The notes under the pieces are model-generated. The model saw only the letters and a program-made list of their open reading frames with translations, was not told where the DNA came from and ran no database searches. Shown here piece after piece: positions 23,060 through 41,428 of a stretch of 64,000 nucleotides of DNA. The position numbers and the translations under genes were made by a program. This stretch comes from Phycisphaera sp. (GTDB lineage Bacteria; Planctomycetota; Phycisphaerae; Phycisphaerales; Zrk34). The stretch lies in NCBI GenBank assembly GCA_016125285.1, contig WGMA01000012.1, positions 62,001-126,000 on the forward strand, given 5' to 3'. Positions within the stretch are counted from its first letter, which is position 1. The number at the start of each line of letters is the position of its first letter.

Positions 23060-23509
23060 TCACGCAAGCATCGTGATGATGTGTTCGATGAGCGGCGCGT
23101 TGGCGGGCGGGAATCGCACGTCACGCAGGTCCGCGGGCGCGACCCAGCGGTGCTCAACGACCTGGATGTTGCGCGGTTCGCCATCAACGTGCGTGCAGCG
23201 ATACGGATACAACCGCACGTGGCCGTGGTCGTAGACGTGTTCGATCAACGGCAGCGCGTCACCGACGCGCACTTCGACACCGACCTCTTCGACGAACTCA
23301 CGTCGCAGCGCCTCGGCGTGCGATTCACCGTCTTCGATCTTGCCGCCGGGCATCTCCCAGTAGCCCGCAAGCACCGTATCGCTGGGTCGTCGGGTGATGA
23401 AGACGAGCGGCGAATCGACGTTGCCGGACACGAGAACGCCGATGACGACCTCGATGACACGCCCGGTTTGCGGGTCCTGTGGGGGGTTTGGGCCCGTCGG
23501 ATTACCCAT
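23060..23509 (-). CDS. mutT: Nudix hydrolase, MutT-like (8-oxo-dGTP diphosphatase)
   Basis: 149 aa. The Nudix box is complete: G56-x5-E62-x7-R70-E71-F-V-E74-E75-V-G77-V, within GYWEMPGGKIEDGESHAEAL. The flanking IEVVIGVLVSGN and LVFITRRPSDTVLAGYWEMP fit the MutT subfamily, which cleans oxidised dGTP from the nucleotide pool; the sequence LIEHVYDHGHVRLYPYRCTH is also MutT-like. Other NTP substrates cannot be excluded. The ATG at 23509 has no strong ribosome site. Confidence 0.85.
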   Translation of the reverse strand: MGNPTGPNPPQDPQTGRVIEVVIGVLVSGNVDSPLVFITRRPSDTVLAGYWEMPGGKIEDGESHAEALRREFVEEVGVEVRVGDALPLIEHVYDHGHVRLYPYRCTHVDGEPRNIQVVEHRWVAPADLRDVRFPPANAPLIEHIITMLA

Positions 23510-23712: not shown

Positions 23713-23742
23713 TTGACACTTGGCCGGGGGTCGGCCTAATAT
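23713..23742 (+). promoter_or_regulatory. Near-consensus sigma-70 promoter without a downstream gene
   Basis: TTGACA (perfect -35) at 23713-23718, an 18-base spacer, and TAATAT (five of six, -10) at 23737-23742. A transcript would start near 23749. Only an intrinsic terminator follows before the convergent cstA. The upstream stretch 23510-23712 is AT-richer than its surroundings and shows no gene that I can support. Confidence 0.75.
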
Positions 23743-23748
23743 GGTGGC

Positions 23749-23834
23749 GTAACAACCGATCTCAACCGCGAGCTAAACTTTAGCCGTGGCGCCCCCCGTT
23801 GCGGAATCGGAGCCCGCAGCGGGGGTATTTTTTT
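23749..23834 (+). ncRNA. Candidate small RNA, about 86 nt
   Basis: Bounded by the promoter at 23713-23742 and the strong terminator at 23792-23834. The body holds a short palindrome (GCTAAACTTTAGC) in the single-stranded part before the terminator. No start codon with a ribosome site and no open frame of useful length is present in it. I recognise no known RNA family (not 6S, tmRNA, SRP or RNase P by length or motif). Existence is inferred from promoter and terminator; expression is not shown. Confidence 0.5.
23792..23834 (+). terminator. Strong intrinsic terminator of the candidate small RNA
   Basis: A 12-bp stem with one G-U type pair (CCCCCGTTGCGG with CCGCAGCGGGGG, loop AATCGGAGC region) is followed by TATTTTTTTAA. 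The T-run is only on the plus strand side, so it does not belong to cstA or mutT, which are both on the minus strand. Confidence 0.9.
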
Positions 23835-23921: not shown

Positions 23922-25907
23922 TCACGCGCGATCGTTCGACGCCGCGCCAGCCATCGCCGGCTGCACGCGCGCGCCCCGCAACGGCGGCAGCGCGGGCTCC
24001 ATCACGCCCTTCACGCGCGGCCACATCAGGATCGCTTCGACAATCATCCACGCCTCGAGCAGCAGCGTCAGCGCCGCCACACCCGCCAGCAGATACGACC
24101 CCTTGTTCATCCAGTCGATGAAGTTCAGCGTCATCGCCCACGCGGGCATCACGAGCATCATGACCATCGGCGGTAACGCGAACCATATCGGCATCTTCCG
24201 ACGCCACAACCAGAAGCAGATCACCAGGAACGCCAGGCCCGCCAATAGCTGATTGGTCGCGCCGAACAGCGGCCAGAGGATCAGGCCGCCCGTGCCGATG
24301 CTCTGCGCGGTCCACTCCATGACGCCATCTTTGTTGGGCGCGGGGATCAGCGCGAGCAGGAACGCGGAAACGACCGCGAACAGGGTCGCGCCGTGGGCGT
24401 TGGTCAGCCAGACGATCGGGTTGAGCGCGTGTGGCTTGTGGTCGGCGGCCTCGCCGGTGGTGTGATCGGCGCCCTCGAGGTTGTCGTCGAACTCGTAGGC
24501 CTCCGCGGCGCGGGCCGAGGGGCTGATCTTCGGTGCGAACGTCGAGGCGAGCTCCTGCACGACGTAGCGCTGCAGGCGTGTGGCGGTGTCGAGCGTGGTC
24601 CCGGCGAAGCTCGCCACGAGCACGCCCATCATGGCTTTGCCCATCGTGGCGTCGATGCCGATCGCGGCGAGGAAGTTGGCCGAGCCCACCACGAACGCGC
24701 TGATCGCCTTGCCGCCGGTGACGTTCTTCCAGTCCCCGTAGATCGAGGTCCACAACTCCGCTCCGTGCTGGGCTTTGTACATCTCCGGCCAGCCGAGCCC
24801 GATGCCCGCGGCAACGGCCAGCAGGACGAGTGTCGCGAGGAACCCTTCCAGGAGCATCGAGCCGTAGCCGACGAATTGCGCGTCGGTCTCGCACTTGAGC
24901 TGCTTGCTGGATGTGCCGCTGGAGACCAGACAGTGGAACCCGCTGATCGCGCCGCAGGCGATGGTGACGAACAGCACGGGCATGATCGGCGGCGCGTTGA
25001 GCGGGTGCGTCTCCAGCGCCGGGGCCACGATCTTCAGCGGCTCGCCGTGCACGCCGATCATGCCCGCCACCGCCAGCCCCACCACCACCAGACCCAGCGA
25101 GCTGATCAGCTGCAGCGAGTTGATGTAATCGCGCGGCTGCAGCAGCACCCACACCGGGATCACGCTCGCCACGTAGCAGTACGCCAGCAGGATCGCTACC
25201 CACACCCAGATCGGCCAGTGGCTCAGCGTCGCGTTCAGCCACTGGATCGACTCGCCGATGTGGCCGCCTTCCCACGCCAGCCCGGGACATCCCGCGCCGA
25301 ACCACACCGTCAGGTACATCAGCGTCAGCGCGATCACCGAAGGCCACAGCAGGTTCTTGCCCTTGCGGTGCACCTTGACGCCGATCCAGATCGCGATCGG
25401 GATCTGCAGGAACACCGGCAGGATCGACTCGGGGAACGCCACGAACACCTTGGCGATCACCCAGCCGAAGATCGCCAGCACGATCCACAACGCGAAGAGC
25501 AGGATCAGCAGGAACAACAGACGCACGCGCTTGTTGAGCACGCGCCCGGCGATGTCGCCGACGGTCTGCCCGCGGTTGCGCATCGACACGACGAGCGCGC
25601 CGAAGTCGTGCACCGCGCCCATGAAGATCGACCCGACGAGGATCCAGATCAGCGCCGGCACCCACCCCCACATCACCGCGATCGCCGGGCCCACGATCGG
25701 ACCCGTCCCCGCGATCGACGTGAAGTGATGCCCGAAGACGATCGACCGGTTGGTCGGCACGTAGTCGCTGTCGTCGTTCACCTCGACGCTCGGGGTGACC
25801 GCGTCGGGGTCGAGCTTGAAGATCTTGCGTGCGAGGTAGCGGCCGTACGTGTGGTACGCGATCAGGTACGCCACGCCCGCGCCCAGGGCGATCAGCAGTG
25901 TCTGCAT
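23922..25907 (-). CDS. cstA: Carbon starvation protein A, peptide/pyruvate-type transporter
   Basis: 661 aa inner-membrane protein with about 16 hydrophobic helices. CstA signatures are dense: FGHHFTSIAGTGPIVGPAIA, MWGWVPALIWILVGSIFMGA, VHDFGALVVSMRNRGQTVGD, IACGAISGFHCLVSSGTSSK, LVASFAGTTLDTATRLQRYV. In E. coli CstA imports peptides under carbon limitation and the related BtsT imports pyruvate, so the substrate is one of these. It is a single-gene unit. The N-terminus MQTLLIALGAGVAYLIAY is normal for the family. No regulator such as a BtsSR pair is adjacent. Confidence 0.93.
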   Translation of the reverse strand: MQTLLIALGAGVAYLIAYHTYGRYLARKIFKLDPDAVTPSVEVNDDSDYVPTNRSIVFGHHFTSIAGTGPIVGPAIAVMWGWVPALIWILVGSIFMGAVHDFGALVVSMRNRGQTVGDIAGRVLNKRVRLLFLLILLFALWIVLAIFGWVIAKVFVAFPESILPVFLQIPIAIWIGVKVHRKGKNLLWPSVIALTLMYLTVWFGAGCPGLAWEGGHIGESIQWLNATLSHWPIWVWVAILLAYCYVASVIPVWVLLQPRDYINSLQLISSLGLVVVGLAVAGMIGVHGEPLKIVAPALETHPLNAPPIMPVLFVTIACGAISGFHCLVSSGTSSKQLKCETDAQFVGYGSMLLEGFLATLVLLAVAAGIGLGWPEMYKAQHGAELWTSIYGDWKNVTGGKAISAFVVGSANFLAAIGIDATMGKAMMGVLVASFAGTTLDTATRLQRYVVQELASTFAPKISPSARAAEAYEFDDNLEGADHTTGEAADHKPHALNPIVWLTNAHGATLFAVVSAFLLALIPAPNKDGVMEWTAQSIGTGGLILWPLFGATNQLLAGLAFLVICFWLWRRKMPIWFALPPMVMMLVMPAWAMTLNFIDWMNKGSYLLAGVAALTLLLEAWMIVEAILMWPRVKGVMEPALPPLRGARVQPAMAGAASNDRA

Positions 25908-41399: not shown

Positions 41400-41428
41400 T
41401 TGACAGCACGCGCCCACCGGCCTAGTCT
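41400..41428 (+). promoter_or_regulatory. Promoter of the MFS transporter gene
   Basis: Perfect TTGACA at 41400-41405, a 17-base spacer, and TAGTCT at 41423-41428, followed by a leader of about 63 bases to the ATG at 41499. The box CTAGTCTCTGCGG is close to CTATAGTCTCTGCGG in front of the sulfatase (about 38410), which suggests shared control. Confidence 0.7.

Follow-up and report, generated by a model that had tools for sequence, protein, structure and literature searches.

The 64-kb stretch of planctomycete DNA analysed here (the window) carries a promoter-terminator unit at positions 23713-23834, the predicted product of which is a small RNA that, judged from its sequence relatives, appears to belong to an unrecognised family spanning one entire class of planctomycetes. 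On balance we favour the explanation that this RNA is a pyrK leader turned into a stand-alone, Hfq-independent sRNA that would act via its terminator loop. If this is true, the family would allow the passage of a regulatory RNA from cis to trans action to be traced, in bacteria that are without Hfq and for which hardly any sRNAs have been described. We found no report of this RNA in the open-access literature.

The unit lies on the plus strand and its outline is as the earlier note had described it. A sequence scan finds the -35 box TTGACA at 23713-23718 and, after an 18-nt spacer, the -10 box TAATAT at 23737-23742, and the 12-bp terminator stem with its run of seven T's is present, ending at 23834. 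Placing the start from the -10 box (around 23749) gives a predicted sRNA of about 86 nt (23749-23834) that is conserved in relatives. Both the fold and covariation identify hairpin H2 (23793-23825) as an intrinsic terminator stem-loop, in which 23793-23804 pairs with 23814-23825 around a loop of 9 nt; the loop motif UCGGAGC (23807-23813) is near-invariant in the window's order. The stem is followed by TATTTTTTT, including the T7 tract at 23828-23834 that forms the predicted transcript end. To the earlier two-part picture we add a weaker hairpin upstream of the terminator, H1 (CCGCG-A-GCUAA/ACU/UUAGC-CGUGG, 23766-23789, from the fold), whose 3' arm makes up, together with the linker, the segment AGCCGUGGCGC (23782-23792) that alignment counts show to be conserved class-wide. 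The fold of the 86-nt RNA has an energy of -38 kcal/mol (z = -3.8), and none of 200 shuffles was equally stable.

With strict scan criteria (a perfect TTGACA plus TANNNT, and a stem of at least 10 bp plus T6) this unit is the sole promoter-terminator pair in the window, while 60 block shuffles of the window yielded a mean of 0.0 pairs. A generic terminator scan missed H2 because the loop exceeds the 8-nt limit of that scan. Apart from this unit the window has one strict promoter match and one strong terminator, at 41400 and 43373 on the plus strand, which are not paired with each other.

Both flanking genes are on the minus strand, as had been claimed: a divergent NUDIX/MutT-like gene (23060-23509), assigned by profile matches and neighbour-ORF clustering and conserved in synteny, and a convergent CstA gene (23922-25907), which is seen in this position in families f1 and f2 only. 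The claims that the unit holds no open frame with a ribosome site and fits no known RNA family are likewise borne out. A small protein was rejected, given that no such frame was found in the unit and that core lengths differ by numbers not divisible by three; no tRNA was found at 23713-23834, and cmscan gave no Rfam match at gathering score for the window and 16 homologous loci. The unit has its own promoter and its own terminator, is non-coding and is conserved in relatives, which are the general characteristics of an intergenic sRNA.

A BLAST search of 161 nt against 100 relatives shows that a core of 50-60 nt recurs in other genera with the promoter retained upstream and little else similar. 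A first covariance model (R1), built from seven relatives and seeded in one family of the window's order, matches 77 of the 301 genomes of the order, almost always once per genome; a second model (R2), built from 58 sequences, matches 109 of the 397 genomes of the class. Both counts are lower bounds because large searches apply strict filters. With H1 added, the resulting model (R3) also matched family f20 of the class strongly (E about 1e-15 to 1e-19). R3 matches from outside the class are mostly weak, with one possible exception at L181 (E 9e-9), and the others that we inspected resembled chance or coding DNA. The same place, searched as L372 (2001-2070, plus strand), gives an R3 match with E about 1e-8 to 1e-10 and carries AGCCGUGGCGCC as well as a terminator, so that it is possibly a true distant member. 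Second copies are rare: a weak match in the window's own genome (C12) is without H1 and was not credited, and a second, weaker R3 match in G004 (L367, 1501-1565, plus strand) has AGCCGUGGCGC but a poor stem.

Conservation is concentrated in the promoter and in the RNA itself. TTGACA or TTGACN is found at the matching position in most of the 102 homologous loci, with -10 variants TAGGAT/TACGAT in sister families and TATAGT in other orders, and promoter scores average 10.1 against 8.2 for shuffled upstream regions. Among 58 aligned matches, fitted to the model and hence in an alignment that favours structure, standard pairs make up 95.9% of the cells of the terminator stem, and 11 of its 13 pairs have double changes. 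Cells with a double change number 144, whereas shuffles give 42 and slid controls far less; for this stem the class-wide MAFFT alignment A9 leads to the same view. For H1, 88% of cells are paired in the class-wide alignment and covariation is scant. Between genomes of the same genus core identity is for the most part 91-98% (84-86% in two pairs, and leaving out L054, where a core identity of 35-37% probably reflects a coordinate or orientation error), against 13-46% for the downstream flanks, which is about the level of unrelated sequence. The check proposed in the earlier note, conserved stems with compensatory changes at a conserved promoter position, turned out positive, and instead of the missing promoter-terminator pair that would have spoken against an sRNA we find core and promoter recurring across order and class. 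In family f8 (L122, L124, L126, L127, L130, L131, L134) a CGCCACG-like segment further upstream has the potential to pair with CGUGGCG in the region of H1, which would give an extended or alternative fold.

Outside the window's order the gene next to the RNA is mostly one of pyrimidine synthesis. Neighbour-ORF clustering places the divergent NUDIX/MutT gene upstream of the RNA in many loci and, outside the order, reveals a single gene directly downstream on the same strand, pyrK. Its product was identified by PF10418 (the DHODB Fe-S domain), and the best NCBIfam matches, under the cut-offs of the models, are to the dihydroorotate dehydrogenase electron transfer subunit; pyrD comes next in roughly twelve loci (NF005574, well over cut-off). 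According to tblastn, pyrK lies downstream on the same strand in 27 of 35 loci outside the order against 0 of 69 inside, and the divergent mutT is present in 7 of 35 against 39 of 69. Four loci outside the order (L121, L123, L128, L149) have both neighbours, suggesting an ancestral mutT<-RNA->pyrK arrangement. Most candidate pyrK starts are 16-70 nt past the T-run, and a few lie more than 90 nt away. A second promoter would hardly fit into the usual gap, if at all; pyrK should therefore be expressed by read-through in those orders. With a terminator between the promoter and an adjacent same-strand gene, the pyrK-linked loci fit the layout of an attenuator.

The window's copy has no same-strand pyrK downstream, as is true of all 69 loci of its order. 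No PyrK was detected in its genome nor in most of the order; in 5 of the 24 order genomes tested a strong pyrK match lies at another place and is not accompanied by the RNA, and no convincing copies of the RNA were found near pyrR or near relocated pyrK. The word orphan, used in the earlier note, describes the window's copy incompletely: the same RNA leads pyrK across the rest of the class, so that this copy resembles a leader from which the gene has gone. The RNA also occurs without downstream pyrK at L373 (genome G342 of family f11) and at L135, L139 and L140 (family f17), with mutT present at L373, L135 and L140; this suggests that in these lineages RNA and pyrK parted independently of the event in the window's order.

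Constraint is distributed differently in the two groups of loci, a contrast that was drawn after the alignments had been inspected: GCCGUGGC occurs in 27 of 27 pyrK-linked loci (GCCGUGG in 44 of 69 loci of the window's order) and a terminator base of the type CYUCCGG/CCGGRRG in 23 of 27 against 0 of 69. Conversely, UCGGAGC is found in 68 of 69 loci of the order against only 4 of 27 linked ones, although its near-invariance is partly ascertainment because R1 was seeded from loop-bearing sequences and loop-less members are more easily missed. One would expect such a pattern if the functional part of the RNA had moved away from leader and terminator base and into the loop. In f20, f24, f26 and f27 (L163, L167, L169, L170, L175, L137, L138, L144) UCGGAGC is replaced by another conserved terminator loop, GUGGAUGA.

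The class-wide layout consists of promoter, H1, GGCRC linker and terminator hairpin H2. In most other orders, as comparison of the loci shows, the RNA is the promoter-proximal leader of pyrK, with the terminator before the gene and presumed read-through into it, an attenuator architecture. The window's order has kept promoter, terminator and loop but no longer has pyrK behind them. There the terminated leader may act alone as an sRNA without Hfq, presenting the UCGGAGC loop, and perhaps AGCCGUGGCGC too, to a partner that could be RNA or protein; initiation of base pairing by the loop with mRNAs that bear GCUCCGA-like sites would be the most likely mode. From sequence we infer transcription, termination, attenuation of pyrK in other orders and trans action in the window's order alike, and the putative direction from leader to sRNA is read from the shared mutT synteny rather than from a rooted tree. 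That the leader survives alone under strong selection would speak for its having become an independent regulatory RNA. Tentatively, at somewhat less than an even chance, we further suggest that a cis-acting attenuator leader was freed from pyrK early in one order and repurposed as a trans sRNA, with selection moving from H1, linker and terminator base to the UCGGAGC loop. What the earlier note called the outline of a trans-acting sRNA stands as a conserved, non-coding promoter-terminator unit, with putative trans action and a probable origin as a pyrK leader. As to targets, the perfect 9-mer complement of GCCGUGGCG is not enriched over the reversed control in seven genomes, and mutT mRNA was rejected as an antisense target (native pairs at -66.1 kcal/mol are no better than swapped pairs at -65.7 kcal/mol).

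Protein binding is the main rival to a base-pairing sRNA. Here the GGA of the loop (in UCGGAGC, or in GUGGAUGA in other orders) would serve CsrA or another RNA-binding protein as a decoy or as a site of delivery, a reading that we consider distinctly unlikely. The GGA is found in the H2 loop throughout the window's order and in f11, f20, f24, f26 and f27, and CsrA in 52 of the 53 genomes tested, although this co-occurrence is uninformative because CsrA is nearly universal. The flanks, however, appear to differ from the CsrA consensus (the second base ahead of GGA is U instead of A), families f8 and f17 possess CsrA but lack the loop GGA, and a decoy of the CsrB/RsmZ type with multiple GGA was rejected: there is one loop GGA, the 5' region shows no enrichment (97 against 85 expected), and just one or two sites are available. 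It is also unlikely that the RNA has always been trans-acting and that pyrK in other orders uses its promoter by unregulated read-through, without attenuation. Retention of the RNA without pyrK in the window's order, in f17 and in the f11 genome would agree with this, as would the lack of a shared leader ORF and of any obvious antiterminator that we noticed, but conservation of the terminator base in linked loci alone suggests a cis role there.

A further rival is a pyrimidine-responsive leader bound by PyrR, a protein that was found in 31 of 40 genomes, including nearly all tested pyrK-linked ones and family f1. It was not found, however, in RNA-bearing f2, f3, G025 and G060 nor in pyrK-linked G320, and was therefore rejected as a general partner; given in addition that the PyrR-binding RNA element of Rfam has no match at gathering score in the window and the 16 loci, we regard a PyrR target or decoy as very improbable. 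A leader peptide of the pyrBI type was rejected because 26 pyrK-linked leaders share no frame or start. Hfq (PF17209) was detected in 0 of 53 genomes, with positive controls detected, so that an Hfq-dependent trans-acting sRNA was discarded as well. Because of the gaps in PyrR, the lack of a shared leader peptide and the absence of Hfq, we favour the stand-alone, Hfq-independent sRNA acting via the UCGGAGC loop. We give hardly any credence to a functionless relic, or to a promoter and terminator kept merely for the act of transcribing beside mutT: mutT is indeed the one neighbour that stays (39 of 69 loci), but the loop is near-invariant, the stem is compensating, the core is much more conserved than its flanks, and the RNA is retained even where mutT was not found.

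For the PVC group as a whole, a survey from 2022 gives a total of 8 annotated sRNAs (PMC9029176). Occurring in two states, as leader of a pyrimidine gene and as free RNA, the family would offer a natural series for the question of how a cis leader becomes a trans sRNA, and it prompts the question by what means a trans sRNA would function where Hfq is lacking. There is precedent for a terminated leader that acts both in cis and in trans: Rli51, the leader of mpl in Listeria, is a 121-nt 5' leader that ends in a terminator and is released as a short RNA, and has been reported as cis attenuator and trans sRNA (PMC11394854). No relation in sequence or structure is expected, and mpl still lies downstream of Rli51, in contrast to the present RNA, which in an entire order occurs without pyrK. 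In E. coli, 5'UTRs yield the sRNAs ChiZ and IspZ, which act as sponges of other sRNAs (PMC7815308). These also arise from 5' leaders, but they sponge sRNAs, and the genome of the window's RNA is without Hfq.

The PyrR-dependent pyr attenuators are terminator-ended leaders upstream of pyrimidine genes. The present RNA, where linked to pyrK, resembles them in ending with a terminator before a pyrimidine gene, but differs in having no Rfam match and in occurring in genomes without detectable PyrR. In the pyrBI operon of E. coli a pyrimidine gene is controlled by leader-peptide attenuation. The likeness lies in a terminator-bearing leader of a pyrimidine gene, with U-rich stretches in some orders, and the difference in that the pyrK-linked loci share no leader ORF with a ribosome site. 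Individual leader ORFs are suggestive, for example at L163, L137 and L144, and several leaders with the GUGGAUGA loop also carry short ORFs that end at the UGA of that loop.
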